Shown one piece after another: positions 2,353 through 42,268 of a stretch of 42,364 bases of DNA; position 1 is the first letter of the stretch, and each line of letters opens with the position of its first letter. The translations under genes were made by a program, and so were the position numbers. The DNA is from a virus. The stretch is taken from positions 1-42,364 of IMG/VR virus record IMGVR_UViG_3300009285_005270. The stretch is one strand, 5' to 3'. The notes beneath the pieces were generated by a model that did not search any database, was not told where the DNA came from, and saw only the letters and a list, made by a program, of their open reading frames with translations.

Positions 2353-5300
2353 TTACAACTTATCATAGGTGGTTTTAATTCCCAGTTTAAGTCGTAATTC
2401 TTTGGTCAAATTGCGCGATACATTGTCTACATACTTCTGTCCTCTTGGACCCAAGCCAGAAGGAGTGTCGCCTTTATTGTTTGCTCCACCCCGACCGACA
2501 TTGTGAGCTGCTATGGCTCTGTTTATGTCGCCATCAAAATGTTTCAAATTACTAGCAAACTCTTTCCCCAACCAATTAATTGCAAACTCCGGATCATCAG
2601 CCTGCCCATCTGTCACATCCGGATGCGCCTTACTATTTATTTGAGCAATCCCTCGATCGATCCCGGTCTCTTTCGTACCATTTCTAGCATCGGTCTTATA
2701 GCCGCTCTCTTGCCACAACATTGCTGATATCAACTCTGGCCTCATACTATGTTTTTTACTGGTATTGATTACCTGTTTGCCTATCTCCCCTTCTGGTTTC
2801 TTTTGGGATAAACCAATGTAGGTATCTGCTTGCTCATTTTCCGGTGTTGGTGTCAATACCTGCTCTTTTCGAGCCGGTTGCTTAAACTCACCAAGCTCCT
2901 TGCCGGTCAATCTTTTCTCGGTCTTAGCATTAATATTTTGTTTGTACCACTCCGGATAGTTGGACCTTAAATACTTCATTGATTCTTCGTTCCTAACTTT
3001 CTGCTCGGCTTCATATTTCTTACGGTCTTCGCCTTTCTTAAACTCCTCCTCGGCACTCACTGTCTTACCGGACATAAACTGACCCACATTATCTAAAAAC
3101 TTCTGCCAACCGGTTCTCATGTCGAGATTCCATACTGTTTTATTTTGCGTTCCTTCTATACCCTCAGCGGCATAGGCCTCTTTGACTATTTTGAAATTCA
3201 GTAATCCCTTTTTTTCTTCTTTTACTTCCTTGGTTTTTTCCAAATACTTATTCATCACATCATTGGTAATGATCTTGTTAGAAGCGGCAGTAGTAAGTAG
3301 GTTGTAAAAATCTTCTCCGGTCATTTCTTTTTGATATCGAGCTAACATCTCGGCCTTGGCTTCATTAGTATTGGCGTAAATTAAGCTATCTAAAAACACA
3401 TTTTTACCTTCCAGTTTTTGGACCTCGTACTTCTTCATCAAATTAGCCACTTCCTGCACATCATCTTTATTGTTGGTATCCAGCTTATGGCCCAATACAT
3501 TTTCAATATCAGTTAAGTTAGGAGCGCGATTGTTTTTAACTGCGCCGTCAATTGCCTCATTCCTTCTCATTGTCTTTTGAGCGTTTTTCTGTTCGATCTC
3601 GGCCTTGATCTTTTGATCGATCTCGGTTTGTCCATAGTTAGACACTCTGACAAAACGACCCAATAGATTAGATAACACGGGTAAGTTGAGCATCTTCTCC
3701 ATTGCCCCTTCGTTGCCATCTGCTCGATATGCCGGAATGACGATACTGGCTCCTTGATTGTTGAGTAGCCATTGAAGCATCTTTGGCCACGAATATTTGA
3801 AGCCAGCTTTGTATTCATTATCGGTTAAGACATTTCTATTTCTAAAACTATCCCAAGGGTTCTTCCCAGAGAGGTAGGTGGACAAGGCTTGAGCGCCGGT
3901 GATTGACGGAGTAAGGTTTGGTAGTTGTCCGGACCACAAACTGAAAATATCAGATAAATTGTCAAGCAGGGTTTGTTTATCGCCCCCCTTAAGGGCATTG
4001 GCCAACTTCCAGAGCATTGCCCCTTGGAACCGTCCTGTCTCGTCGGCCGGTATTCTGACATAAATTGTTTTGCCATTTTCATCAGTTCCGATTGGCACAA
4101 TCGTATAATTGGCTTTGTCGTATTCGGAGACTGAATCAAGTTGCTTTTTATACAAGACCCCAAGCAGACCCATTGTCCCGGCAATTTGCATTAACTTTGG
4201 CATTAATCCTAGTATTGACTTAAACCACCACGCACCCCTAGTCTTTGGTCTAGTGGCCATATTGATGTCACCTTTGATACCCTCTTTGGCGGCATTAGAG
4301 AATAGGAAAACATTATTAGTAATTGGGGTAGCAGTACCATTAGTTAAAAAGTCCGGTGAACCAATATAATTTCGAACATAATGAGCTAATTCTTTTTCAC
4401 CGATTTCACCCTTAAGTATTCTATATCCGGCTATTTTGGGTAATGCTTCAATGAAATTACCCACTACTTCAATTCCATCGAACAATTTAATGACCGGCTT
4501 CAAAACAGTTTTTAATGCCGATCTACCTTCTTTACCAGGGACCACTCCAATTCTTCTTAAAACTCTAGTTACCTCTTCTTCTCCGGGATCGGGGGTACCG
4601 TAAAGATCATTTCTATTTAACCCAAAAATCTCATTAGTTTCCATCTCTCGGACGATATCATTCTCGCTTCCTACTGCCTTAGCCCATGCCGCGGGTACTG
4701 ACTTAATATAACTATTAACCAATTTGGGATATGACAATAAGGATTGGCCAACCGTCTTATCTGGCATGTTACGCCATGTTCTCTGAAAGTCTTTTTGAAA
4801 GTTGAATAGTTGAAAACCTAAATTTAGGGAAGTAAATAATGGACGGTATATTCTGGTTTGAGTCAATACTTTAGTAATCGTTCCCAGCTTCCTTAAATTT
4901 GGTTCATCAATGTGATTGAGAATCGTAGACACCTCTTTGTCAACATAAAATGCACGAATTTTACCAACAATAATTACCTTAACTAAACCTAAATCTTTAT
5001 TTCTTGATTCTATTGGTACTTTTGTTTTACCATTCCAAATCATTTTGGCATCCTCCAATTCCCCAAGGTCTTTCAAAAACTTCAAATTGACCTTCTTAGA
5101 CTTGTTGTACCGCATGGCCCGAAGTGTCGTCACCATCTTCATCAAAGAAGTAGTGGCCGGGTTGGCAATATCTTTTAGGGTACCTTTTTGTTGATGGACT
5201 GCCGAAGTAATTTTTTGATCGATATAATCCAAGACTTGAAAAGTGGCATAAGATTTATTGGCTTTCATCTGTTCTAGCATTTCCGGTCGGTAAAAACCCT

Positions 5301-8300
5301 CCTTCTCAGCTTGGTTCACTAAGGCTTGCATCCCTTTTCTAAACATCTCTTTGGCTTCCTGTAGTTTTTGCCAATCTTCCGGATTGGTGTGTTTTTCCAT
5401 CTCGTCTAATGTCCACTTAGCCGTCTTTGGATCATAACCGCCGGGATTAGCGAGTTCACCGCGCTCAAACATGGCTCTTTCAAGTTGAAGAATCTTACCC
5501 AGATCAGACCATCCATTAATAACCTCATTAGCTTTAGTAACCACCGGTTGAAAATTATCATGAACAAACTCTTTAATTGCTCCCTCCATATAATTAAGTC
5601 CGGCCAGATCATAAATGGGGTTAAATTCTGACTCGATATTTTTACCACTTTTAATTGCCTCTATTACTTTCTTATTAATTGCATAGTTTTTATCGTTGAA
5701 CAGAGTATTTAACATTCCAATTACATTGATCTTATTATTTTTCTTTTCTATCTCTTGAGCCAACCATCCCTCTTCCCCAGTTTTATAACTCTTCTCTAGC
5801 GCTTTATATCTCTCTTGGAATATTTGTTCATCACCGGCATTGAGTAGATTTTGAAGATCAAAAAAGTTGTCTCTAATTTCTGGTTTGTTATCCATCCAAT
5901 TAAAAAATCCTCGATAAAACTCTGGTGCTTTTTCTTTCAGTAAGGCCGGGTCATTGAAGAGGACCGATATAGCATCGGCATATAATTCTTTACCAGAGAA
6001 ACGATATTTGGTATAACCAGGATCAAGACCGGGATTAAATGGCTTCCAAAGTTGAGTAAGTGCTTTTAGTTCAGTAGTAATTTCTTCAATGGCAAATAGT
6101 CCCCGACTTTTGATTTCTTCTCTGACCAATTCCTGATACTTTTTCTTGATATCGGCAGGGGCGTTCTTCATCACCTCAATTAGTTTCTTCTCTTTGGTAA
6201 TGATGCTGAAATTAGCCCACTCCGGCAACACACCCTTAATTGCTCCTTTCACTATTTCTACTTTTTCTTTTTCACCAAGCAATTTAATATATTCCATCAG
6301 TCCCGGCATGGTCTCTCCGGCCATCGTGTCATTCCAAATAGCCATGATTTCTGACGGTGTTGCCTTTTTCTCACCAATAATTACTTCAACCTCTTCTAAT
6401 TGTGGCTTTGATAGTGACTGCTTTGCCTCGCTTCTTAGCCTCGATCGATCTTGCGGTGTCAATATACCAGCTTCGGCAGTAGGTGATTCCGGTAGCATGT
6501 GTTTTAGATATCTTCGCATAGAGGCGATCCGGCCAAGGATATTCCCCCGACTCATGGTTTTTTCCGGAAAATAATCAGTTAAATGTCCAAATTCATGAGC
6601 GAAAACTTTAACAGCAATAGTTGGATTCTTAAATATTTCCCTATTTAGAGTAATCCCACCGGCTCGATGGACACCTAGATAAGATCGAAGCGCTTTAAGG
6701 ACCGGCACCTTATTAGTCAAGGTTCGATACATCCTTAACAACTCTGGAAATTCAACCGCCTTGATTCCTTCAAGCTCTTTCATTCTCGATTTCACATCAG
6801 CATATCCGCCTACATCAGCTTCCGGATAATATCTTGGATATGTCTCTCTGGCGGTTGGAACCGACATGGCGATATCTATAGCTTCACTGGCGGATAATTC
6901 CAGATTGTTTTCAATTCGCCTAACCGTTTCTAGTAAGTCAGATATTTGAGTTGGCATCACCTTGGCTAAAGTTTCTACATCACCTTCGGCGAATCGCTTG
7001 AGATTCATTAATCTTTTGGCCTTGGCAATGGTTTTTAAGTCGTTGTCTTCAAAAATCTGTCTTTGTTGTTTGGCCACTTCTGCTCTTGCTACCTGCATTT
7101 CGGTTGGCGGCTTTTTCTTTTTTGCCCTAACCTTCCTTTTTCTTGATTGGGGAATGGTTTTTATTTCCGGCGTTAATTTTTCCACCAAAACTCCACCTTG
7201 GCCATCCCTGGCAATAATTCGATAATCTTTTAGTTGAATGGTTGATACCTTTCCGTATTCTCCGGCCGCCACCCTTGTCTCTGTCAACCAAACCAAGTTT
7301 TTAGTTGGTACCTTTTCAATATCTATACCCGGTTCAACTTTTATATCCGCATTACCAAGTTCTTTCTGTTCATATTCGACAATTTGTTTTGCTGTCATAT
7401 TCTTCGGCATGGCACTTTCCGGACCACCACGATAAAAAGTTTTGGGAGTAGTAATTGGTTTTACTGATACATACTTCTCATAAAAAGACTTGATGGTGTT
7501 GATTGTAAAAGGCTTGTTGTCATTCCACTTGACAAATTCTTCTGTTAGTTTGGAATCTGTTGCTATTGAAATAAACTTTTTATCAGCTACCGTTAAGTCG
7601 GGTGATTTTTGTTTGTCTTTTAACTCAATGAATTTATTTATGAAGTCGTCGACCGTCTTAAATTTACCCGCCAGTTCTTGTAATGGTTTCAAAGTGTCTG
7701 GAACTGCCTTTACTGTAGTTGCCAGTGGTGCCACTTTAGTTTCGGCCACTGGTACTTGTTTCTGAACCTCCGTAACTACCTCTCTGGTTGGTTTCGTCAA
7801 TCCTAGAGGCTCTGGTGAAGTCGTTGGCTTTGGACCCAATCCTATTTTAATACCAATTGAGTTCAAACCAGGGGTAACTACCTTAATTCCACTTTCCCCA
7901 GTAGTGTCAATTTCCAGCATCACACCTTTTCCTTTGGCCACGGCTGCTTGTTCAATTATTTTATTTCCGGCAGGGGTATTATTCAGATCAGACGACTTAA
8001 CAGTGTCAATCGCCGCTTCCGGTGTCATAGTGATGGGTTCTCTGACTGGGGTTATACCAGCTTTTTCTGTTAATGATTTTGGTTTTACGACTGTTTTAAT
8101 ATCACTTAAGTTTACTTTGCCGAATAAACCTGCCAGTTTTCTTTGCCAAACTCCTGCCCTTTTCAATATTTCGTAAGAATCATTAAGTTTTTTAACTTCT
8201 GCAATTTGTTCTAGTGTTCCCCTACCGGCAAAAACTTCTTTATAATTAACAATCTTTTTTTTGTAGGCGGCAGATATCTCGGATAATGGGGCATCTGGCC

Positions 8301-25830: not shown

Positions 25831-26050
25831 TAACTAGTTCTGCTTTATTAATTTTTAATCTAGCACTCATGGTTTTACTTGAACTCCACTCATCCTTATT
25901 AACTCCCATTACTTCAACATCAACCATCATCCTATGCTTTCCACCCACCTTCATATCTTTTATTCCAGGCAGTTCTTCATCAGTCATCGTCATCATTGGC
26001 TTCATTTTTGGCATAGCCTCTACCACTGGGGATTTATTTGTACTTTTCAT
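25784..26050 (-). CDS. Hypothetical Met/Lys-rich protein, 88 aa
   Basis: The chosen start is MKSTNKSPVVEAMP at 26050, preferred over an in-frame start eight codons earlier that lies in the intergenic T-rich stretch. The middle contains EELPGIKDMKVGGKHRMMVDVEV, a pattern that recurs in small phage proteins encoded near terminase and portal genes. Function is unknown. It overlaps the next gene by 47 bases, longer than usual here. Confidence 0.55.
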   Translation of the reverse strand: MKSTNKSPVVEAMPKMKPMMTMTDEELPGIKDMKVGGKHRMMVDVEVMGVNKDEWSSSKTMSARLKINKAELVNEDNEATKQAKKGHY

Positions 26051-26074: not shown

Positions 26075-26281
26075 TTAACTTAAATCAATTTCGGTTTCCC
26101 CATCGAGCAATTGACTATCTCTAACTTCTATTCTAACCAAAACATTATTCTGTTTGTGGACCACAAATTGACCAAAAGAATATCTACGAAGCCGTTGTAT
26201 CAAATCAGCTTCCTTAACGGTTATTGTTACCATTATTTTCTTCTCCGGCTTGTATGGTGAAAATGGTGTTGTGTCGCTCAT
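26075..26281 (-). CDS. Hypothetical protein after TerL, 68 aa
   Basis: It starts MSDTTPFSPYKPEKKIMVT, with a probable small alpha/beta fold (VKEADLIQRLRRYSFGQF). Its ATG overlaps the TerL stop by four bases, so it is co-translated with the large terminase. No family is recognised. Confidence 0.6.
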   Translation of the reverse strand: MSDTTPFSPYKPEKKIMVTITVKEADLIQRLRRYSFGQFVVHKQNNVLVRIEVRDSQLLDGETEIDLS

Positions 26282-27675
26282 GTTCTTTCGTAAGGATCGT
26301 CATTTGGTGCCGATGATTGGCTACTCGATGATTGTCCTGAAATAATTATATCCTTAAATGCTACCGCAAATCCCCTGAAAGCATCAGAACCATGAGAAGA
26401 CCAATCATGCTCTGGGTGCGCTCTATATACTTGATTCTTTTCATCCCACTCTTTGTGGTAACTCATCAAAGCATCCCAACCTCTCTCTGTTTTTTCTAAA
26501 TCAAACCAACATCGATTCAAAATATTTCTCACTGCCTGTATTCCGTCCTCAACCGGGATCATCGGTATTACTTCAAATTCAATTCCCAAACTCTTGGCCA
26601 CTTCCAACCGGCTCTTGCCAGTACCCAACTCCCGGACCTTGATATCGTGAGGCGCATAATGTTTTCGATAGATATAAGGCTTCTTCCCCAATGCTTGAAT
26701 ATAATAATTAATTCCCTCCCCATTATCTTCCATATAATCAATCAAATGAACCTCCTTACCCACCACCTGCACAAACCAAATCGTCATTGAATCATCAATA
26801 CCCAAATCCCAATAAGTATCAACCAAACCATTCATGTCGTAAGGAACCGCAGTATGCCGGCCATCCTCGTCAGCTTTCAATAGTTGTTGCGCATAATAAG
26901 AACCTTGAATTGGGACATCAAAACTGCACATATACTCCTGCTGATAAAGCGCGTCATTCCCATCCTTCCTAATAATCTCTTCTCTTTCCTGTCCCAAAAT
27001 CTTAGGATCAATAGCCTTAGTATCTTCAACCGTCAACACCTCCGAATACCATACTTTGGGAAATGCCCTCGCCGTCTGCAATGTCGTCCATCCGTGATTC
27101 TTCCCTCTTGGGGTATAGTCAAATACCGCCCACCCCCCATTCTCTGCCAAAATAGGTCTCATAAAATCCCATGCGGCCGGATTTTGCAGTGGCCACTCGG
27201 AAAACACACAACCAACAGGATTAGTACCCACAATAGAATCAATGTTGTCAGTTCCAATTACTTGAAATAACGATCCGGGTATCTTATCTCCGGCCTTATG
27301 GCGTTCCAATTCTTCTGAACTCATTAAAGTTGTTGGCTTTTTTACTTCAATCAGCATTTCCGTGTTGTCTGTTCTGATCCTCAATCCTTGGGGTATATGA
27401 TCGGTAAACTTAAAGCCATCGCGATCCCGGCCATTCCAAATTATTTTCTTACCCTGTTTATAACTAGGAAGAAAGTAGTAGTAGCCACCAATTCGCTCAA
27501 ACATTTCTTTGGCCATGTAGTTGATGAACACCTTATCCTTTCCAGAACGCCGGTGCCAAACACTCACCACCCTCTTAAATCCGTTATCTAGCGCCTGTAG
27601 AACAGGCTTTTGGTACCACCGTGCAGTAAAGTTGTAGGGCAAATCAATTTTCCGGTTTAGGTCCAGTTCCGCCAT
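26278..27675 (-). CDS. terL: Terminase large subunit (TerL)
   Basis: This is a 465-residue packaging ATPase-nuclease. The ATPase half shows a Walker A variant W40-H-R-R-S-G-K-D47 and a Walker B CVFSE with catalytic E160. The C-terminal RNase H-like nuclease has the acidic residues D290 (TYWDLGIDDS), D344 (APHDIKV) and D431 (SHGSDAF). The R-R-S-G-K-D form of Walker A is common in podovirus-type terminases. It works with TerS and the portal to cut and pump DNA into proheads. It overlaps TerS by 32 bases, an arrangement common in packaging modules. Confidence 0.95.
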   Translation of the reverse strand: MAELDLNRKIDLPYNFTARWYQKPVLQALDNGFKRVVSVWHRRSGKDKVFINYMAKEMFERIGGYYYFLPSYKQGKKIIWNGRDRDGFKFTDHIPQGLRIRTDNTEMLIEVKKPTTLMSSEELERHKAGDKIPGSLFQVIGTDNIDSIVGTNPVGCVFSEWPLQNPAAWDFMRPILAENGGWAVFDYTPRGKNHGWTTLQTARAFPKVWYSEVLTVEDTKAIDPKILGQEREEIIRKDGNDALYQQEYMCSFDVPIQGSYYAQQLLKADEDGRHTAVPYDMNGLVDTYWDLGIDDSMTIWFVQVVGKEVHLIDYMEDNGEGINYYIQALGKKPYIYRKHYAPHDIKVRELGTGKSRLEVAKSLGIEFEVIPMIPVEDGIQAVRNILNRCWFDLEKTERGWDALMSYHKEWDEKNQVYRAHPEHDWSSHGSDAFRGFAVAFKDIIISGQSSSSQSSAPNDDPYERT

Positions 27676-28177
27676 AATCTTTTACCCTGATAACTTCTAA
27701 TTGACCACCCAAGTCTACCTTTTGTTTTTCCGGAGCGTATGATCCTTTCAATTTGTAAGCCAAGTCTAATGCTACTTTGATGTTTCCACCGATAGGTACG
27801 GTATACCAAAGCTCAACCATTTTTTTGACCTTGACATCTCTCAAAAGTTTAATAAGTCTTCCGTTGGACATTGTGACGACTCGCTTTATTTCGGTGTCGG
27901 TTAGGTCAGGATTAACAAAGGTGTGTCTCATTCTTCGGGAATTGAGGAGCAGTTTGTGAGCCTGAACTAGTTTTTTGTCTGGTATTAAATCACCGATCTT
28001 TGACACTTCTTCTTGAAAGCCCTTAGTCCCAGTAACGATCTTTGGTTTTCTAGCCACTGATTCTGAATACCCAGCATCTCTTAAAATCTTTGCCATCGAT
28101 ACATTTTTCTGTCCCTTATATTTGCGGAGTATTTCAGATATTCTACTTACCGCGATTATCTGTCTGTTTGTTGCCAT
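27644..28177 (-). CDS. terS: Probable terminase small subunit (TerS)
   Basis: A 177-residue basic, helical protein whose N-terminus carries a helix-turn-helix-like segment (VSMAKILRDAGYSESVARKP, residues 26-45). Immediate overlap with TerL and the length make it the DNA-recognition subunit of the terminase. The central part is helical (LVQAHKLLLNSRRM), and the C-terminal tail GGTGPKPEN would contact TerL. The upstream leader at 28178-28313 holds a motif shared with the capsid leader. Confidence 0.85.
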   Translation of the reverse strand: MATNRQIIAVSRISEILRKYKGQKNVSMAKILRDAGYSESVARKPKIVTGTKGFQEEVSKIGDLIPDKKLVQAHKLLLNSRRMRHTFVNPDLTDTEIKRVVTMSNGRLIKLLRDVKVKKMVELWYTVPIGGNIKVALDLAYKLKGSYAPEKQKVDLGGQLEVIRVKDYGGTGPKPEN

Positions 28178-28313: not shown

Positions 28314-28724
28314 CTACCGTTTTAACTCTTTTTCAATCACTTCCATTACATCATCCAAACTATCAGTCCAAAAAGCCAAACCACCATTATCATTTATATT
28401 TTTAATAAATTCTAATTGCGCCGGTGTTGGTTTGCCACCGGGTCGTTTTACTTCGATCGCCAAAAACTTACCTCCCGGTAAAATACCCAAAATATCTGAT
28501 ATGCCAATGAGTCCAGTCGGTATAAAACTACCATTTTCTTTCTTAATTCCTACATTATTTACCTTCCAATGGAATATCTGGTTGAGCGAAAGGTAATCGA
28601 GGATTGATTTTTGCACTTCCTTCTCTAAAACATTTCCACTCGCAGAATTGAATCTAATCTTGGCCGGTCCTCTTTTCTTACTCTTGAGCAATTTTTGATA
28701 ATTGGCCGCGGACATTTGAATCAT
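28314..28724 (-). CDS. VRR-NUC (PD-(D/E)XK) nuclease
   Basis: A 136-residue single-domain nuclease of the VRR-NUC type. D77 lies in GISDILGIL, and E91-V-K93 (FLAIEVKRPGG) forms the E-x-K of the PD-(D/E)XK core, followed by the PTPAQLEFI helix; E34/E36 may supply the first acidic residue. Phage VRR-NUC proteins act on branched or flapped DNA in replication or packaging. It sits next to the terminase genes. A start three codons in (28715) is possible. Its ATG overlaps the upstream small gene by ATGA. Confidence 0.9.
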   Translation of the reverse strand: MIQMSAANYQKLLKSKKRGPAKIRFNSASGNVLEKEVQKSILDYLSLNQIFHWKVNNVGIKKENGSFIPTGLIGISDILGILPGGKFLAIEVKRPGGKPTPAQLEFIKNINDNGGLAFWTDSLDDVMEVIEKELKR

Positions 28725-28882
28725 TTTATTATCTTATTCTTTCCATTAACCATAAATTTTTTACCCATCTCATTAAACAATCTCACGCTTCTTATTTTTA
28801 AGTATTCAATTTTACCCAATAACTTAATTAATTTAGTTTCATCTTTCACAGTGGACTTGTCGACATCGAAGTCGAGTAACAC
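28721..28882 (-). CDS. Small basic protein with GTG start, 53 aa
   Basis: The frame is open from a TAG at 28901-28903 to TGA at 28721-28723. The first usable start is GTG at 28882 (reads LLDFDVDKSTVKDETK after the initiator); a second GTG is at 28849. The C-terminus is helical and basic (KIRSVRLFNEMGKKFM). Its TGA overlaps the nuclease ATG as ATGA, which is the main evidence that it is translated. The true N-terminus may lie upstream across a frame change; see the finding for 28904-29212. Confidence 0.5.
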   Translation of the reverse strand: MLLDFDVDKSTVKDETKLIKLLGKIEYLKIRSVRLFNEMGKKFMVNGKNKIIK

Positions 28883-28903
28883 AACCTTTGTAGGGTTGGT
28901 CTA

Positions 28904-29212
28904 AACCTATCAAGCCCATTTGCCAACTACCTTTTGCTATATCGGTTGGCGCGACGGATGCCACACACAAGGCTCTGGGCTAGATCACTCGATACTAAAG
29001 TGCTAGCAGTGCCATATCTGTAAGCCGGCTAATTGAAGTATCGGCACGAAGTGGATGGAACGGAATCGAACCGCCGCCGGTTGGTAAAGCAACCTGCATA
29101 CCAATTACCATCCATAACAGGAGGATACAACTACAAACATGTTGCCAGATTGTAAAAGTATCCGCAAGTTCAAGCAACAAAGTATAGTTGAGCTTGATCT
29201 TTATCCTGTTAT
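28904..29212 (-). ncRNA. Candidate structured RNA region with no convincing gene
   Basis: The stretch is less AT-rich than its surroundings and folds into consecutive helices. A 9-bp closing stem 29114-29122/29204-29212 encloses two hairpins (29123-29163 with GGATAC/GTATCC, and 29171-29196 with CAAG-CAAC arms). A tRNA-like element lies at 29052-29114. Hairpins follow at 29009-29047 (GTGCC/GGCAC), 28979-29007 (GCTAG plus CACT arms) and 28922-28950 (GCCAAC/GTTGGC). The orientation is assumed minus from the tRNA-like part. It could also be degraded coding sequence, because one minus frame is open except for two TAG codons. Confidence 0.4.
29052..29114 (-). tRNA. tRNA-like element, anticodon unclear, probably degenerate
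   Basis: On the minus strand a 7-bp acceptor-like stem TGGATGG/CCATCCA is perfect, the T arm has the consensus GGTTCGATTCC, and a D-loop-like TAATTGGTA follows the acceptor. The anticodon stem GGTTG/CAACC leaves a six-base loop, CTTTAC, instead of seven, and the variable region is three bases, giving only 63 nt. UUU or UUA are the possible anticodon readings. It may be decayed, or a tRNA mimic inside a larger RNA. Confidence 0.4.
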
Positions 29213-29481
29213 CTAAATCTATACCCCTCAACCCACTGTTTCAAGACATCAGAAGAGGCTTGTTTGGCCTCGGTCTCTACTCTCCTATACCCTTCGGAGA
29301 ATAGTTTAACCTCTACCGGGTGGGTAGCTGCAAAACGGATCGATTCATTAGTCGACACCGGCACAATTATGCCAATCAAAATCAAATTAAGAATAAGACT
29401 CGCAATCAAGAGCTTACTTACACTCTTTTTTAGAGCTACCAGCTTTTCTTTTTCCGGCATATCGGTTTCTATCCTTGGCAT
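29209..29481 (-). CDS. Single-pass membrane protein, 90 aa
   Basis: A GGAGG ribosome site nine bases before ATG at 29481 fixes the start. The layout is a short cytoplasmic head (MPRIETDMPEKEKLVALKK), one transmembrane helix at about residues 22-42 (LLIASLILNLILIGIIVPV) and a soluble helical C-terminus (KLFSEGYRRVETEAKQAS). No family is recognised. Its stop overlaps the closing stem of the structured region downstream. Confidence 0.65.
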   Translation of the reverse strand: MPRIETDMPEKEKLVALKKSVSKLLIASLILNLILIGIIVPVSTNESIRFAATHPVEVKLFSEGYRRVETEAKQASSDVLKQWVEGYRFR

Positions 29482-29553
29482 TTAATTTTTCCTCCTGCTT
29501 AAATAAATAATAAAAAAGTAATAATAACCCTATGAGACCGATAAAATATAAAA

Positions 29554-29727
29554 TTAGTATGATAAAGCTAATCTATTAATTTTATCCTGCAAGGTAATCA
29601 TCTGATTTCTTTTAAGGTTGTTTCTTTCAATTACCTTGCCCGCATCTTTATCCATCAACTCACACAACGCCTCATAAAGTAATCCCAGTTCTCCTCTAGT
29701 TATGACTACTTTGATCTTGTCGTCCAT
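29554..29727 (-). CDS. Small hypothetical protein, 57 aa
   Basis: ATG at 29727 to TAA at 29554. The translation begins MDDKIKVVITRGELGLLYEA and is helical throughout (LMDKDAGKVIERNNLKRNQM). It starts two bases after the preceding 52-aa gene stops, in the same compact operon. Function is unknown. A DNA- or protein-binding helix bundle is possible. Confidence 0.6.
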   Translation of the reverse strand: MDDKIKVVITRGELGLLYEALCELMDKDAGKVIERNNLKRNQMITLQDKINRLALSY

Positions 29728-29729
29728 AA

Positions 29730-29888
29730 TTATTCCCTATCCATGTCGTTTCTACTTACCTTGGCCGTTTTAGAAACGAGCTTGATAGTCTCCATCAAAT
29801 AACCAATAAGCGATTCAACTACCAGCTTGTCTTTGATGTTAGCTCGGACATCAAGCATGTAGATTTTACTGTACTTTTTTGCTGACAT
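29730..29888 (-). CDS. Small hypothetical protein, 52 aa
   Basis: A GGAGGT ribosome-binding site lies six bases before ATG at 29888, inside the end of the upstream gene. The protein begins MSAKKYSKIYMLDVRANIKD and ends SRNDMDRE, largely helical and charged. Overlap with the upstream stop and the two-base gap to the next gene show tight coupling. No family is recognised. Confidence 0.65.
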   Translation of the reverse strand: MSAKKYSKIYMLDVRANIKDKLVVESLIGYLMETIKLVSKTAKVSRNDMDRE

Positions 29889-30171
29889 TTGTACCTCCTA
29901 AATTATTAAATTTTTCTCCTTTTAATTTATAGTCATTAATTCTTAACTTAACTACTTCTGCCAACACATCCCCCGTTAATTTTAGTGGTATCGTGATTCC
30001 GTAACACATAAGGATGTAACTATTTAATTTAACTAACGAGTTTACAATACCTGCATATACCGGTGCCTCGGAATTAATCATACTCTCCAATATTTTAGCC
30101 ATTTTATCGTCTTTCTCTACACCAAACGCCGAAGAGATTTTAACCCTAATATACTTATTTACTTTTTTCAC
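29866..30171 (-). CDS. Hypothetical protein with GTG start, 101 aa
   Basis: The initiator is GTG at 30171, one base after the RtcB stop, with AAAGGGG just upstream as ribosome site. The protein begins with a basic strand (KKVNKYIRVKISSAFGVEKD) and continues as a mixed alpha/beta domain. No motif is recognised. Coupling to RtcB hints at a related role in RNA metabolism, but this is only context. Confidence 0.6.
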   Translation of the reverse strand: MKKVNKYIRVKISSAFGVEKDDKMAKILESMINSEAPVYAGIVNSLVKLNSYILMCYGITIPLKLTGDVLAEVVKLRINDYKLKGEKFNNLGGTNVSKKVQ

Positions 30172-30172
30172 A

Positions 30173-31381
30173 TTACCCCTTTATTACCGCCAGTGGCTTA
30201 AGACTGACTAAAATTTTAACCAAGTCCTCTTGATTCTTCATAACAACATCAATATCTTTATATGCTCCGGGTGCTTCCTGCAAATCGTCTGCAACCCTTG
30301 GCGCGCCTAATATACCATCCATTTTCTTTTGCTCTCCCTCTAGTGATAAAGTTCTAATTGCTTCCTTTCTTCCCATTCTCCGACCGGCACCATGACTACA
30401 TGACATATACGATTCTCTATTACCCAAACCCTCGACAATATATGAGCTAGTACCCATTGATCCGGGGATGATTCCAATTAATCCCTCAGTAGCTTTAGTC
30501 GCTCCCTTTCTATGGACCATAACATTTTCTCCAAAGTGGTTTTCCATTGCGGCGTAATTATGAGCAATATTAATCATATTCTCCATGTTAAATCCCTCCG
30601 ATAGTTTCGATTCAAAAACGCTGCTAAAAACATCTAGGACCCGATTCATCATCAATTTTCTATTAGCCAAAGCAAACTCCACACAATAATTCATTTCTTT
30701 TATGTAGTTCTGTCCCTCTTCACTATCAATCGGTAAGAACGCCAAACCATCTTCACCAACAAACTTAGGAATGTTGGAATACCATTTGAGGTTTAATTTT
30801 TGAGCCAGATCATTGTAATGTTTGGCCACTTGGAATCCTAAGTTACGCGATCCAGAATGAATCATTATCCAGATATGACCATCATCCCCTTTTTGAATCT
30901 CAATAAAATGATTGCCGCCACCAAGAGTACCTATTTGAGTTTCAGCATTTTCATATTCGCGAGATATTACAGATTCATCCGCATTTCTAAACTCCATCCA
31001 CGGAAATTTACCATCAATAAATCCCGGCATTAGTTTTTCGTCTTGAGGTTTATTGTGATGAGCAAATCCTACCGGGACAACCCTTCGGATCTCACCCATG
31101 ATCTTTTTTAATTGATCTTGGGTTATCTCCGTGAGGCTTGTCTTGACTGCACACATACCACATCCGATATCTACCCCTACCGCATTAGGAACTATCACGC
31201 CACGAGTCGCTAGTATGCCACCAACAGGCATTCCATACCCTTGGTGACAGTCCGGCATGGCACATACCCACTTATAGGTAAAAGGTAGATTGGCGATCGC
31301 TTTGAGTTGGACCATTGCCCCATCCTCAATTTCATCTAACCACATTTTTATTGGTACAGCTTCGGTATTAATTACTTTCAT
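30173..31381 (-). CDS. rtcB: RtcB-family RNA ligase, 402 aa
   Basis: A full-length GTP- and Mn-dependent RNA ligase that joins 2',3'-cyclic-phosphate or 3'-phosphate ends to 5'-OH ends. Metal ligands D71 and C74 (VGVDIGCGM), H158 (GGGNHF), H175 (MIHSGSR) and H274 (IAHNYAAME) are present, as is H330 (SCSHGAGRRMG), equivalent to the guanylylated histidine of E. coli RtcB. All key residues are intact, so activity is expected. Its start overlaps the 57-aa gene by ATGA. Phage RtcB can repair host or phage tRNAs cut by defence ribonucleases, in keeping with the tRNA genes in this genome. No Archease is seen nearby. Confidence 0.95.
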   Translation of the reverse strand: MKVINTEAVPIKMWLDEIEDGAMVQLKAIANLPFTYKWVCAMPDCHQGYGMPVGGILATRGVIVPNAVGVDIGCGMCAVKTSLTEITQDQLKKIMGEIRRVVPVGFAHHNKPQDEKLMPGFIDGKFPWMEFRNADESVISREYENAETQIGTLGGGNHFIEIQKGDDGHIWIMIHSGSRNLGFQVAKHYNDLAQKLNLKWYSNIPKFVGEDGLAFLPIDSEEGQNYIKEMNYCVEFALANRKLMMNRVLDVFSSVFESKLSEGFNMENMINIAHNYAAMENHFGENVMVHRKGATKATEGLIGIIPGSMGTSSYIVEGLGNRESYMSCSHGAGRRMGRKEAIRTLSLEGEQKKMDGILGAPRVADDLQEAPGAYKDIDVVMKNQEDLVKILVSLKPLAVIKG

Positions 31382-31576: not shown

Positions 31577-32146
31577 TTATTTAATAACTGCTAAATATTC
31601 CTTACCATCTAAAATGACTTTTACCTCTTTGCCAGATAGACCAACATTTTCTTTCTTTTCTTCCGGTAACCCCAATTCAACCAATTTTCCATAACAAACT
31701 TCACCCTTTTCCAACTTTCCACATTCTATCTGTAACTCCTCTTCTGTTGGTTTTCTCCACAAACATAAACCGGCAAATATCCTCAATGAAATATTTAATC
31801 CTAACTTACAAACAATGCCCCATCCGGCTTCAATGCCCGATCCGGCTTTAATGCCCTCTCCGGCTTTAATGCCCTCTCCGGCTTTAATGCCCGATCCGGC
31901 TTTAATGCCCGATCCGGCTTCAATGCCCCATCCGGCTTCAATGCCCGATCCGGCTTCAATGCCCGATCCGGCTTTGGCAAAAATATATCCGGAAACCTTA
32001 ACACTACCCCCAAATCTTACATATCCCAAATTTTCTTCTATCTCTATGTTCCCTTGAAAATCAGATACATCCTCTTTTCCAATATATTCTTTCCAATAAT
32101 TATCAGTATCCTTAATGTCTTTACTAGTTATGACCAATGTTTTCAT
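31577..32146 (-). CDS. Hexapeptide-repeat protein (left-handed beta-helix type), 189 aa
   Basis: Residues about 59-112 consist of nine nearly perfect hexapeptides of form A-G-(S/W/E)-G-I-(E/K/V), preceded by related strands (GYVRFGGSVKVSGYIFAKAG) and followed by LGLNISLRIFAGLCLW. The period of six with Ile facing inward suggests a small beta-helix in which polar S/E/W and E/K positions face solvent. The N-terminus (MKTLVITSKDIKDTDNYW) and the C-terminal 70 residues are ordinary globular sequence. Protein-binding or DNA-mimic roles are conceivable; no function is known to me. Confidence 0.75.
   Translation of the reverse strand: MKTLVITSKDIKDTDNYWKEYIGKEDVSDFQGNIEIEENLGYVRFGGSVKVSGYIFAKAGSGIEAGSGIEAGWGIEAGSGIKAGSGIKAGEGIKAGEGIKAGSGIEAGWGIVCKLGLNISLRIFAGLCLWRKPTEEELQIECGKLEKGEVCYGKLVELGLPEEKKENVGLSGKEVKVILDGKEYLAVIK
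31813..31974 (-). repeat. Nine tandem 18-bp repeats inside the hexapeptide gene
   Basis: Nine consecutive in-frame 18-bp units are seen on the plus strand, each reading AATGCCC-NNT-CCGGCTT-(C/T). Only positions 8-9 and 18 vary, so nucleotide identity is much higher than the amino-acid pattern requires. This suggests recent expansion by slippage or unequal recombination, and copy number may vary. It is not a CRISPR array: there are no spacers and the unit is coding. Confidence 0.85.
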
Positions 32147-38690: not shown

Positions 38691-38695
38691 AATTG

Positions 38696-38766
38696 CTCCA
38701 AGACTAGGATTCGAACCTAGAACAACTGCTTAACAGGCAGTGGTGATACCATTTCACTATCTTGAA
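38696..38766 (-). tRNA. tRNA-Asn (GTT)
   Basis: Acceptor TTCAAGA/TCTTGGA, D stem GTG/CAC, anticodon stem ACTGC/GCAGT with loop CTGTTAA, and T arm CTAGG-TTCGAAT-CCTAG. It is the last tRNA of the six-gene cluster, directly before the bidirectional terminator. No CCA is encoded. Confidence 0.92.
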
Positions 38767-38770
38767 TCGG

Positions 38771-38841
38771 CGACCTGCAAGAGAATCGAACTCTTACTAA
38801 CGGTGTGACAAGCCGATATTCTGCCATTAAATTAGCAGGTC
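38771..38841 (-). tRNA. tRNA-Asp (GTC)
   Basis: Acceptor GACCTGC/GCAGGTC, T arm AAGAG-TTCGATT-CTCTT, anticodon GTC after T33 and discriminator G, as expected for Asp. The anticodon stem has a C-A mismatch at its loop-closing pair and a weak outer pair, so the arm is somewhat degenerate. It is separated from tRNA-Asn by four bases. Confidence 0.82.
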
Positions 38842-38845
38842 TAAG

Positions 38846-38917
38846 TCGGGATAGGTGGATTCGAACCACCAACCGACGGTCCCAGGCCGCCAAAGTTGCC
38901 AATTACTCCATACCCCG
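38846..38917 (-). tRNA. tRNA-Pro (TGG)
   Basis: Acceptor CGGGGTA/TATCCCG, anticodon stem GGCGG/CCGTC, loop CCTGGGA giving TGG with G37, T arm GGTGG-TTCGAAT-CCACC, discriminator A. Position 33 is C in place of the near-universal U, an oddity. An alternative reading as GGG would break the anticodon stem. Confidence 0.82.
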
Positions 38918-38918
38918 G

Positions 38919-38989
38919 TTTCGCTTTATGGATTCGAACCACAATCTGTGAGGTCAAAGCTCACCGAACTACCATTATTCGAAAGCGAA
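38919..38989 (-). tRNA. tRNA-Gln (TTG)
   Basis: Acceptor TTCGCTT/AAGCGAA, D arm CGAA-TAATGGTA-GTTCG, anticodon stem GTGAG/CTCAC with loop CTTTGAC (anticodon TTG), T arm TGTGG-TTCGAAT-CCATA. It is one base from the neighbouring tRNA-Pro. Confidence 0.9.
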
Positions 38990-38993
38990 TTGG

Positions 38994-39066
38994 TATCACT
39001 ACGGCGATTCGAACGCCGGTCTGATGGCTGAAAACCACCCGCCCTGACCAACTAGGCGATAGTGAC
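38994..39066 (-). tRNA. tRNA-Glu (TTC)
   Basis: Acceptor GTCACTA/TAGTGAT, D stem GCC/GGC, anticodon stem GGTGG/CCATC with loop TTTTCAG (anticodon TTC), T arm CGGCG-TTCGAAT-CGCCG. This is the first of two Glu isoacceptors in the cluster. Confidence 0.92.
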
Positions 39067-39069
39067 ATG

Positions 39070-39141
39070 TGTCGCTATGGTGAGTCGAACACCAATTAAT
39101 AGATTGAGAATCTATTGGCTTAACCGTTGGCCGATAGCGAC
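39070..39141 (-). tRNA. tRNA-Glu (CTC)
   Basis: Acceptor GTCGCTA/TAGCGAC, D arm GGC-CAACGGTTAA-GCC, anticodon stem ATAGA/TCTAT with loop TTCTCAA (anticodon CTC), T arm TGGTG-TTCGACT-CACCA. It is the 5-prime-most tRNA of the cluster, nine bases after an intrinsic terminator. Confidence 0.9.
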
Positions 39142-39492: not shown

Positions 39493-39710
39493 CTTTCAAA
39501 TTCAGTTCTCTCTGCTGGGGTCATTCTTCTAACAATTAATGTTACCGCGGCATAGTGGCCTCTGGCCACTCTCCATTCATTAGCAACCACTGCATCAGCC
39601 AAATGCTCTAAGGCGTGTTCTGGTAAGGTGACGCACTGTAAATTTTCCTATTCTCTAATGCCGCCAAGAAAATGAGGTATCCGGTGATGAGTTTCGGTAT
39701 GGGTACTACT
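39480..39710 (-). pseudogene. HNH-endonuclease-like C-terminal part with in-frame TAG
   Basis: From about 39708 the frame reads THTETHHRIPHFLGGIRE, a TAG at 39648-39650, then ENLQCVTLPEHALEHLADAV and further to TAA at 39480. The ETHH-R-I-P-x-F-L-G-G, x-N-L and L-P-x-H-A-x-x-H series is the layout of small phage HNH nucleases. The TAG falls between GGIRE and ENL, where the family has an ordinary residue. The 5-prime part of this gene is missing and is replaced by integrase sequence. Either it is dead or TAG is read through; TAG ends other genes here, so decay is preferred. Confidence 0.6.
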
Positions 39711-40334
39711 GGCAAGGTCTATCCGGTCTGCTTTTAGGCTTTCTTTGAATATTAGCTCTAACTCATCATAAGACAAAAAATTTATTTCCCTATTAGGCGC
39801 TTTTTTTGGAAAATATTTTGAAAACTCCTTAATAGCTCTTGAAACGTTTTCGTTGGTATTTGTTATTTCTTGATATAAATCGCCGAGTAAACACATTAAG
39901 GTATGCGTTTTGGTAATTGTTGCTCTTTCAAGCCCTTTATCTCGCATTGAAATATAAAACTTTAATATTTTATCTATTTTAAGGTTTTCAAAAATTGAAT
40001 TTCCAAGTGCCGGTCTTATATGATTTTCAATCCTGGCACGGGTTTCAATTTGCCAATTTTTAGTGCCACATAAAAATCTTGAGTGATTATAAAACAAATC
40101 AATTATATCAGACACCGTAAATACTGTGCCTTTTATCTTAGTTGCATAAGATGGATCTTTCCCAAGCGCAAGCTCTTGCCTTACTTTTGCCTCAACCAGC
40201 AAAGCCTCGTCCTTTGTCTTTCCCGCGGTCATAGCTCTCCATGTAAGCTTTCCAGGTTCTTTCCACCTGACCATCCAGCGGATTTTTCCACCTGATGTTT
40301 TCCTTTTATAAATATTAGTTCTAATTAAAATCAT
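39648..40334 (-). pseudogene. Tyrosine integrase lacking its catalytic domain
   Basis: Residues 1-70 form the three-strand N-terminal domain (MILIRTNIYKRKTSGGKIRW; GKLTWRAMTAGKTKDEAL). Residues 75-185 are a SAM-like core-binding domain (VSDIIDLFYNHSRF; LERATITKTHTLMCLLG), followed by INFLSYDELELIF, which normally introduces the catalytic domain. There the frame changes to HNH-type sequence after KADRIDLA and stops at TAG. The R-K-H-x-x-R-H/W-Y residues are absent, so it cannot recombine. The cause is a deletion-fusion in vivo or an assembly chimera. Confidence 0.75.
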
Positions 40335-40343
40335 AAATACTTC

Positions 40344-40586
40344 TTAAATATTGTAAAACTCAGCCTCCAACCATTTGTAAAAAGCTATTTTAGGATAGCG
40401 AACTTTTTTTTGAATTATTATCTTTGGCAGCCTTGTGCTTATACTCCTTCTTCTTGTTGCATTATAAACATATTTTTCATCACACTCTAATATTTCCGCA
40501 ATGTCCTGCCGAGTAAGAAACTTCTTGTTTTTATGTTTCTCATCAATATCTATAATAAAGTCTCTTAAAATTAAATTTTCAATCAT
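40344..40586 (-). CDS. Excisionase-like helix-turn-helix protein, 80 aa
   Basis: The sequence FLTRQDIAEILECDEKYVYNA (residues 23-43) is a winged HTH of the MerR/excisionase type, followed by a basic wing (TRRRSISTRLPKIIIQKKV) and a final helix YPKIAFYKWLEAEF. GGGGGT lies six bases before the ATG at 40586. It directly precedes the integrase and probably controlled its direction or expression. Composition is AT-rich, like the integrase part and unlike the tRNA region. Confidence 0.75.
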   Translation of the reverse strand: MIENLILRDFIIDIDEKHKNKKFLTRQDIAEILECDEKYVYNATRRRSISTRLPKIIIQKKVRYPKIAFYKWLEAEFYNI

Positions 40587-40598
40587 TTTGTACCCCCA

Positions 40599-40711
40599 TT
40601 AAGTTTCTATCAGCTCACTAAATTTATCCTTATTATGATTAAAATCCTTTTTTTCAAAACTATCAAATTTTAATCTTTCTCTTTCATGTGGCTTTTTAAC
40701 CTTATTATTAA
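40599..40711 (-). pseudogene. C-terminal remnant of a gene cut by the insertion sequence
   Basis: A minus-strand frame is open from the IS boundary to a TAA at 40599-40601. It reads VKKPHERERLKFDSFEKKDF and ends FSELIET, a charged helical pattern. It stops 12 bases before the HTH gene start, normal operon spacing. The 5-prime part must lie beyond the IS, outside the window. Function cannot be inferred. Confidence 0.5.
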
Positions 40712-40742
40712 CCTGAATTTGACCTCGTTTTTCCCCACTACA
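40712..40742. repeat. Left terminal inverted repeat of the IS
   Basis: This 31-bp sequence starts CCTGAATTTGACCTCG and ends CCCCACTACA, matching the reverse complement of the right end at every base. The transposase stop codon TAG (40738-40740) lies inside it. Confidence 0.95.
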
Positions 40743-42231
40743 CTGCCTTTAAAAGAGTCTTATTGATGGTTCCTAGAATTTTTTCTTGACGTTTTGTTAG
40801 CGCCACAAGTTTTCCAATCTTGAACTTACTTTTGGGATTCCGCAAATAAACTCTGTACAATCCATCTAAATCTTGAAGCGCTGTAATTGCTGATACATCA
40901 AGATGACGGACCTTGTCTTTTAAGACTGACAGCAAAAGACAGGCAAGATAACAAATGAAAACGTGTGCTTCAACTCTGTTATACAGCCAGTGACGTATCG
41001 GACGAAGATTGATAACTCCCTTGAGGGACTGAAATGATTTTTCTACAACATCTTTATCGAAATATCCATTGACGACTTCATTCATAGAAATTTTTGTGTT
41101 TGTAAAAATGAGCGAGATCCCATCAGTTTTTGCAGCCTCAATTAATTGAATATTCAACAAGCGTCCATCTTTACCAAAAAATTTTAGGAGCTCTGGTTTT
41201 ATTGTTTTATTACGAGCCAAACGGATCTGAGCCGCTTCGATTTCATCAAATCGCGACTCTTCTTGTAGCTGTGCACGTTTTCTGTTGAAGCATATAATTA
41301 GACGACCAAGACTAGAACCATGTGTAAATTTTTTCTCTCGACAATAGAATTTTGATTGATTCACACGAACACGGTTTCCAACTCGCACAAGATCATTGAG
41401 TTCGCTGACTATTGAAGCCTGGATCGTCTCCGACATTTTGAGACCACAAATGACTTTCCAATCATTTTCCCTCAGATAATCCGTATTTTCAGAAGAAGAA
41501 ATACCTCTGTCCATAACTGCAACTCCTTCACTTATTCCAAAACGCCCCAGATCTGTAGAAACATCACTGAATGTTCTGGAGTCATGAATATTGCCGGGAA
41601 ATGTTTTATGAAAAATTGGAATCCCTCGCTCGCGAGTGACGGCTAGCCCAATTTGTATCAATGGATAACCTTTTCTTTTTTCCTTATCGTGACCAAATTT
41701 TGCAATGGGACAACTTTTGCCATGGAAGTAGGTGTTGGTCACATCATACACTACGCCCTTAGGTGCAACTTTAAGTTTCCTCTTTATGGTATCAAAAATA
41801 TTTTTTTGCAATTGCATTTGATCTACTTGCTCAATTGAATCCAATGCATTCACTAAACGTTTTTCTGTAAGATCCTCCAAATTTAGAATATGATTAAGAT
41901 CAGTTCGCCGGAACCACGTCTTCATATTATTTAGACTTTTGTAATCAAGGCAATGAGCGTATGTCATAGACAATATTTCATTTGCATAATCTCCAAGTAG
42001 CGGCGGCAATCCAATCTCGGATGCAATTGAGTGGAGTGCCATCAAAGGACCAGAAAGTTTTACGGACTCAATTTCTGCCTCTGAAATAGAGCAGGATAAG
42101 ATTGTTTTTCCATCAGCTTCTCGCCCTATGTGTCGAATAAACTTCTGAACAACCTTACCATTCACACGGACATTTTCTACTTCCTCTAAATAAATTTGAC
42201 CATTTCTTCTGCGTTTTCTGATAAAGCTCAT
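40738..42231 (-). CDS. IS1634-family-like DDE transposase, 497 aa
   Basis: The start MSFIRKRRRNGQIYLEEVEN at 42231 is preferred over a GTG six codons upstream that lies in the promoter palindrome. The DDE triad is visible as D in VVYDVTNTYF, D in VAVMDRGISS and E in DKDVVEKSFQSLKGV, with a long insertion before the third residue, as in IS1634/IS4-type enzymes. The Y-(2)-R-(3)-E region appears as VVEKSFQSLKGVINLRPI. The protein looks intact, so the element may be active. The C-terminus ends in the left inverted repeat. Confidence 0.92.
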   Translation of the reverse strand: MSFIRKRRRNGQIYLEEVENVRVNGKVVQKFIRHIGREADGKTILSCSISEAEIESVKLSGPLMALHSIASEIGLPPLLGDYANEILSMTYAHCLDYKSLNNMKTWFRRTDLNHILNLEDLTEKRLVNALDSIEQVDQMQLQKNIFDTIKRKLKVAPKGVVYDVTNTYFHGKSCPIAKFGHDKEKRKGYPLIQIGLAVTRERGIPIFHKTFPGNIHDSRTFSDVSTDLGRFGISEGVAVMDRGISSSENTDYLRENDWKVICGLKMSETIQASIVSELNDLVRVGNRVRVNQSKFYCREKKFTHGSSLGRLIICFNRKRAQLQEESRFDEIEAAQIRLARNKTIKPELLKFFGKDGRLLNIQLIEAAKTDGISLIFTNTKISMNEVVNGYFDKDVVEKSFQSLKGVINLRPIRHWLYNRVEAHVFICYLACLLLSVLKDKVRHLDVSAITALQDLDGLYRVYLRNPKSKFKIGKLVALTKRQEKILGTINKTLLKAV

Positions 42232-42238
42232 AATGGGG

Positions 42239-42268
42239 ATTATCCCCACTACTGCAGATTGAAGTCAA
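42239..42268 (-). promoter_or_regulatory. Transposase promoter overlapping a GGGGAT palindrome
   Basis: On the minus strand TTGACT (42268-42263) and GATAAT (42244-42239) are 18 bases apart. The -10 lies in a GGGGAT/ATCCCC dyad. The start point would be next to the ATG at 42231, giving an almost leaderless message. CCCCACTAC at 42244-42252 repeats the inner end of the terminal repeat, so transposase might bind and repress here. Confidence 0.5.

Follow-up and report, generated by a model that had tools for sequence, protein, structure and literature searches.

A small structured RNA and tRNA-like elements at the border between the early and packaging genes of a phage

The question raised by this locus is what a phage encodes in a gap between its early and packaging genes that appears to hold RNA structure and no gene. 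An earlier sequence-only reading of the virus record analysed here (the window hereinafter, i.e., the whole stretch of 42,364 nucleotides) had marked positions 28904-29212 as a dense succession of RNA helices with a tRNA-like core, and proposed that it could be a new structured phage RNA or a tRNA mimic, perhaps akin to the large, ornate GOLLD and ROOL RNAs. GOLLD and ROOL are large RNAs of phages and prophages that are often encoded near tRNA islands (PMC12286853). The presence of RNAs of this type near tRNA genes is an open puzzle, and their size makes study hard; the RNA described below, which at 99 nt combines a clear fold and a conserved distal motif with a defined genomic slot, would be a small case open to testing.

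Composition and folding of the gap

The minus strand of the window carries the main gene run, from the virion genes (the major capsid protein belongs to the N4-gp56 family) and packaging genes through the early genes, and for this reason is the strand to fold. The flagged region is the gap from a 90-aa ORF to a possible 42-aa ORF, at the early/packaging border (Table 1); seven canonical tRNA genes are located at 37.5-39.1 kb of the window. The region is indeed less AT-rich than its surroundings, as noted previously, with a G+C content of 45.6% compared with 34-38% in the flanks and 39.5% overall, and the earlier statement that no credible gene covers it is also accurate given that the sole frame to do so (78 aa, TTG start) matches no family. 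The open frame of the 42-aa ORF extends back to position 28900 (28721-28900, 59 codons; translation TNPTKVVLLDFDVDKS...KIIK), and homologue searches with it are empty. The idea, prompted by this frame, of a gene split by an intron was rejected because there is neither a match to group I or II introns nor a homologue of the frame. A promoter scan of the region detects sites no commoner than expected by chance.

Table 1. Features of the window discussed in the text; the record is followed by the RNA elements and then by the neighbouring genes
Feature	Coordinates	Strand	Evidence or remark
Source record, IMGVR_UViG_3300009285_005270 (IMG/VR virus)	42,364 bases		
3WJ, 99 nt, closed by P1	29114-29212	-	fold z -5.5 and structural homologue in L004
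P1, 5' strand (AUAACAGGA)	29204-29212	-	contains UAA stop of the upstream 90-aa ORF
P1, 3' strand (UCCUGUUAU)	29114-29122	-	9-bp pairing with 29204-29212
Junction and arm P2	29164-29203	-	basal pairs kept; upper part unlike between the two phages
Arm P3	29123-29163	-	distal motif conserved
T1, 63-nt D-armless tRNA-like element	29052-29114	-	tRNA model, 24.9 bits, E 2.4e-5
Linker between T1 and T2	28918-29051	-	includes hairpin 28979-29007
T2, probable 65-nt D-armless tRNA-like element	28853-28917	-	tRNA model, 12.4 bits, E 0.17 window-wide
Large terminase	26278-27675	-	phrog_2, 2.5e-19; bait for finding relatives
Probable small terminase	27644-28177	-	position; 31% identity to a relative's ORF just 5' of the large terminase
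VRR-NUC endonuclease, leads the packaging block	28314-28724	-	Pfam PF08774, 1.3e-5
Possible 42-aa ORF, GTG start	28721-28849	-	stop overlaps VRR-NUC start (ATGA)
90-aa ORF with hydrophobic stretch	29209-29481	-	just upstream of 3WJ; family searches empty
RtcB-type RNA ligase	30173-31381	-	phrog_1075, 1.4e-123

On the minus strand, the 368 nt from 28845 to 29212 fold with -114.7 kcal/mol (z -3.4 to -3.6; plus strand, z -1.7), which ranks the region third among the 44 tiles of this strand from position 25900 on. The tiles that fold better are found in a repeat region (31789) and beside the tRNA cluster (38045); among the tiles computed, none in the rest of the minus strand falls below z -3.3. 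Thus, the interval marked in the sequence-only reading does fold beyond chance, but it leaves out most of the second tRNA-like element (28853-28917, T2 below). Similarly, the stems of the reported dense stretch are present, but 120 nt in its middle (28931-29050) fold no more strongly than chance (z -0.5), and the hairpin at 28979-29007 that was singled out there does not rise above chance (z -1.5). The region consists of three separate things, all on the minus strand, and is not a single dense RNA. Rfam searches at the gathering cut-offs and ARAGORN searches in the tRNA, tmRNA and intron modes assign it to no class (the tmRNA search is empty), and ARAGORN runs with lowered thresholds are uninformative, with dozens of false matches. 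The repeat region is a gene on the minus strand (31577-32146) for a protein with tandem GSGIEAG-type repeats, to which a protein of the relative L027 is 51% identical; its z of -5.8, the strongest local folding signal among the windows computed, is due to the tandem repeats.

A three-way junction RNA in two phages

The 9-bp stem 29114-29122/29204-29212 had been read as closing a three-way junction, and this holds: the junction (3WJ) has a z of -5.5 on the minus strand (-5.0 on the plus strand), and none of 200 shuffles is equally stable. A search of 498 kb of relatives with a covariance model built from the single window sequence identifies, besides the 3WJ itself, one match, L004:5177-5276, with 27 bits and an E-value of 5e-4. 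The phage L004 encodes a large terminase 64% identical to that of the window. Its 3WJ copy folds alone into the same junction (z -4.0), comes after a 61-aa ORF (4977-5162) that includes a hydrophobic stretch, and lies 5' of genes for tRNA-Ala (5489) and tRNA-Met (5599), a placement similar to that in the window.

The two copies are identical in 44 of 100 columns, with one 1-nt gap, and 26 of the 28 compared pairs are standard in both, 11 having changed on both sides. P1 keeps 9 of 9 pairs in both phages (6 double changes), basal P2 keeps 4 of 4 (all double changes), and P3 keeps 13 of 15 (1 double change) and is conserved in sequence too, with the common distal motif UACUUYURCAwUCUGnCnA(n)CAUGUUUGURG. 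The compensatory pairs that the sequence-only reading had proposed to seek in a homologue are therefore found, in one comparison of two sequences. A count on the model alignment, where agreement with the structure is built in, gives 96% paired and 10 of 27 pairs double-changed, and none of 500 shuffles scores as high; sliding the pair partners lowers the pairing from 96% to 57% or less. A coding explanation was rejected because the frames of one or the other copy hold stops or differ, and a shared protein frame, the alternative raised at the outset, is ruled out by the 1-nt indel in the P3 loop.

A chance likeness between the two copies, with the region being unstructured filler, would have in its favour that there are two sequences only. 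This explanation is close to refuted by the E-value of the match, the similar position, and a control in which none of 2.07 million 100-nt stretches (relatives and window, both strands) pairs as well, the best other stretch forming 23 of the 28 pairs; this control is supportive and is not a p-value because sequence also contributed to the search that picked out the L004 match. Beyond reasonable doubt, the 3WJ is a real structured RNA, and it is a selected RNA structure in the two phages.

A model built from both sequences detects no third copy in 815 kb of relatives or in 19 whole records, and neither blastn and nhmmer searches of the relatives nor the phage GenBank records yield a further homologue; according to the model searches, L017, L027 and most other relatives are without the 3WJ. 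A scan of the viral collection for the P3 motif returns 13 matches, of which only the one in L004's own contig is real. A search of 28650-29600 against Rfam 15, run with lax filters and E-values of up to 10, identifies no described class for the 3WJ, and the L004 copy has no match at E up to 10 either. The 3WJ is a new small structured phage RNA that matches no Rfam 15 family and is known from two phages only, in agreement with the earlier remark that no known class could be matched, now extended by the Rfam 15 and ARAGORN searches.

Like GOLLD and ROOL, the 3WJ is a structured phage RNA beside tRNA genes (the GOLLD linker sometimes even holds tRNAs), but these RNAs are several hundred nt long with an ornate multi-helix fold, whereas the 3WJ is about 100 nt long without such a fold, and their Rfam models match neither the whole window nor 28650-29600 at E up to 10. 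A single large, ornate RNA of this kind is not supported, also in view of the unremarkable middle of the region; structure beyond chance is limited to about 99 nt and the tRNA-like pieces. The tRNA cluster of T4 includes the small stable RNAs C and D, co-encoded with the phage tRNAs, which the 3WJ resembles, by description only and across unrelated phages, as a small RNA beside phage tRNAs. The packaging RNA (pRNA) of phi29, a component of the packaging motor, is likewise about 100-120 nt long with a three-way junction, and the 3WJ is located near packaging genes; unlike phi29, this phage has an ordinary large terminase, and the 3WJ has no Rfam match. In L004, the octamer TTGACAAT is found on the plus strand around the 3WJ and the tRNA genes (5279, 5303, 5476 and 5673), four times as [AT]TTGACAATT; these sites may be promoters or processing sites.

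tRNA-like elements and the slot upstream of the terminase genes

A tRNA model based on 14 canonical tRNAs from the window and its relatives, with T1 and T2 left out, was run unfiltered over the whole window and ranks the seven true tRNAs first, followed by T1 (match at 29050-29114) and then T2 (28851-28917). The two elements are encoded in tandem, about 135 nt apart. T1 is the 63-nt tRNA-like fold of the sequence-only reading, the description of which stands: the acceptor TGGATGG/CCATCCA forms 7 of 7 pairs, the T arm GGCGG-TTCGATT-CCGTT forms 5 of 5 with a loop that fits TTCRANY, and the anticodon stem GGTTG/CAACC (5 of 5) carries a six-base loop, CTTTAC, instead of a 7-nt one. The D-loop motif ATTGGTA is present, but the 5' D strand is deleted in the model alignment, so that there is no D stem. 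The fold of T1 (29051-29114) has a z of -1.6. T1 is below the Rfam gathering cut-off for tRNA (RF00005) and scores 19.3 bits with tRNA-Sec, below the cut-off of 47. With an E-value of 2.4e-5 for the model built without it, T1 is tRNA-derived. Its anticodon loop equals that of the window's own tRNA-Gln, CTTTGAC, minus one base, and together with a U1-A72 pair this suggests an origin from tRNA-Gln. The new structured RNA and the tRNA mimic that had been envisaged as alternatives are thus both borne out, but by different pieces, the 3WJ and T1, respectively.

T2 (28851-28917, z -3.1 on the minus strand versus -0.9 on the plus strand) combines the acceptor GGGCTTG/CAAGTCC, the anticodon stem CAACC/GGTTG with the loop CTACAAA, and the T arm TCGAC-TTCGAT-GTCGA with a six-nt loop; it also has no D stem, and no tRNA model of Rfam matches the 91-nt stretch that contains it at E up to 10. 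T2 is a probable, not a certain, element because it overlaps the 59-codon frame, where codons for DFDVD might by themselves account for its T arm. T1 and T2 have the acceptor, anticodon and T arms in common with tRNA (RF00005), but the D stem is absent, the loops are shortened and the scores are below the cut-off. All 17 stem pairs are intact in each. A descriptor of perfect acceptor, anticodon and T stems retrieves from the window only five of the tRNAs along with T1 and T2; it is matched once in 60 whole-window shuffles, and yields no D-less case in the relatives searched with it. The model scan is the fairer test, since T2 was already known when this descriptor was widened. The terminase relatives sought for covariation in T1 are 68% identical at best (viral and genome collections). 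The sole match to two exact or near-exact patterns of T1, in L064, was rejected as a chance hit inside a tail-protein ORF. The single terminase relative in the genome collection, L063 (JAHFKK010000006.1, 38% identity), comes from a contig labelled Candidatus Gottesmanbacteria, which weakly hints at which hosts distant relatives may infect.

Canonical tRNAs are encoded upstream of the terminase genes in L004, L019/L042, L030 and L032. In L017 (terminase identity 57%), a gene resembling tRNA-Met, the D loop of which has shrunk (1969-2039, 40 bits), occupies this place. It is followed after about 150 nt, 1.1 kb upstream of the terminase, by a 55-nt D-less element (L017:2188-2242) that shares the acceptor core GGATGG/CCATCC with T1 and is also picked by Rfam tRNA-Sec, with 21.8 bits, below the cut-off. 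Another element, L027:3817-3929, has a perfect T arm and a long closing acceptor helix around a 113-nt body. A minimal descriptor that asks for a 7/7 acceptor and a 5/5 T arm within at most 200 nt retrieves from 558 kb of relatives, apart from tRNAs, just the elements of L017 and L027, each of which is located in the slot. Another 319 kb yields additional tRNA-like sequences as well as a sequence, present in three contigs, whose end is only a few bases 5' of the terminase match; the latter is probably due to chance. A 62-nt tRNA-like element that lacks a proper anticodon arm (L054:2336-2397, 22 bits) is present in a phage that has only the VRR-NUC gene in common with the window. In the distant relative L070, a 103-nt tRNA-like sequence (6571-6673, minus strand) has an enlarged body, a tRNA-Ser/Leu-like start and a consensus T arm.

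The recurrence of stripped tRNAs in this slot is compatible with decay that happened repeatedly and, equally, with the acceptor and T arms having stayed in use. That T1 and T2 are functionless pseudogenes, i.e., ordinary tRNA genes of the phage's tRNA cargo in decay, has in our view an evenly balanced standing. T1 resembles a tRNA minus about 5 nt of the 5' D strand and one anticodon-loop base, intact tRNAs are kept in the slot of L004, L019, L030 and L032, and the phage owns 7 intact tRNAs elsewhere; however, T1 and T2 each keep 17 of 17 stem pairs although both are without a D stem, and the slot of L017 holds the 55-nt D-less element. The perfect stems are a weak argument against decay because they were partly selected for by the search.

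It is highly unlikely that T1 and T2 function as D-armless tRNAs or as tRNA decoys, for example against a host anticodon nuclease, with RtcB part of the same defence. The intact anticodon arms of both elements and the RtcB gene on the same strand would fit this, and D-armless tRNAs are known in animal mitochondria (PMC4013460), but T1 has a six-base anticodon loop, T2 a six-base T loop, CCA is absent, and the open-access literature yielded neither a bacterial precedent nor one for D-less or degenerate phage tRNAs. The RtcB gene lies about 1 kb upstream of the tRNA-like elements and may be tied to tRNA repair.

A possible route to a free RNA

The explanation that we favour, as somewhat probable, is that the stable RNA slot of this phage encodes the 3WJ as a small structured RNA, which is freed by RNase P at T1 and acts in trans. 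The slot between the early and packaging genes, the home of tRNA genes in the relatives, would encode the 3WJ, which would be transcribed from the minus strand together with T1 and T2. Having lost the D arm, T1 and T2 should not work as ordinary tRNAs. An acceptor and a T arm make up the minimal substrate of RNase P, and T1, which keeps both, starts on the last base of the 3WJ (29114), so that a cut by RNase P is expected there, giving the 3' end of the 3WJ. The freed RNA would then act through P3, its conserved distal arm, with protein binding as the most likely mode of action. The compact closed fold, the conserved distal arm and the tRNA slot suggest a small stable RNA co-transcribed with tRNAs. 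In L004, the tRNA begins 212 nt past the 3WJ, so that the abutment of the 3WJ and T1 is not conserved and the RNase P step stays a proposal. If T1 is an RNase P signal, this would be a reason for phages to keep tRNA-shaped sequences unable to decode.

The 3WJ might instead act in cis on the late transcript, either as an antiterminator comparable to put of HK022 or as a leader that adjusts the expression of the packaging genes, with T1 and T2 as unrelated remnants, which we consider rather unlikely. The 3WJ is located at the early/packaging junction of one co-directional gene run, right after a stop codon, and its bulged, conserved distal arm would suit binding of the polymerase or a protein. 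Conversely, L004 has about 400 nt and two tRNA genes between the 3WJ and the next ORF, there is no terminator-like site to control within 28600-30200, and a closed stem such as the 9-bp P1 is what free-standing RNAs typically have.

Within the favoured scheme of a freed, trans-acting 3WJ, a more far-reaching analogy can be drawn. The mascRNA of MALAT1, tRNA-like but with reduced arms, forms the 3' end of another RNA and there acts as an RNase P signal. T1 is comparable as a tRNA-like element with reduced arms and a possible RNase P signal 3' of another RNA, but mascRNA (RF01684) is eukaryotic and does not match T1 at E up to 10; its model gives a sub-threshold match to the L004 tRNA-Ala only. 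By this analogy, T1 would be a D-armless tRNA mimic that steers RNase P to mature the new 3WJ, a phage counterpart of MALAT1-mascRNA, and the stripped tRNAs (T1, T2, L017:2188-2242, L027:3817-3929 and L054:2336-2397) would be reusable processing signals, a conjecture that we regard as unlikely.

At the other end of the window, six of the tRNA genes are clustered on the minus strand (38695-39141) with a spacing of 0-4 nt. Beyond this cluster (39648-42249, minus strand), there are a short ORF that by eye is tyrosine-recombinase-like, an 80-aa ORF and a DDE transposase (Pfam PF01609), and the tRNA cluster and transposase end could be an integration region or a cargo end of the phage genome.
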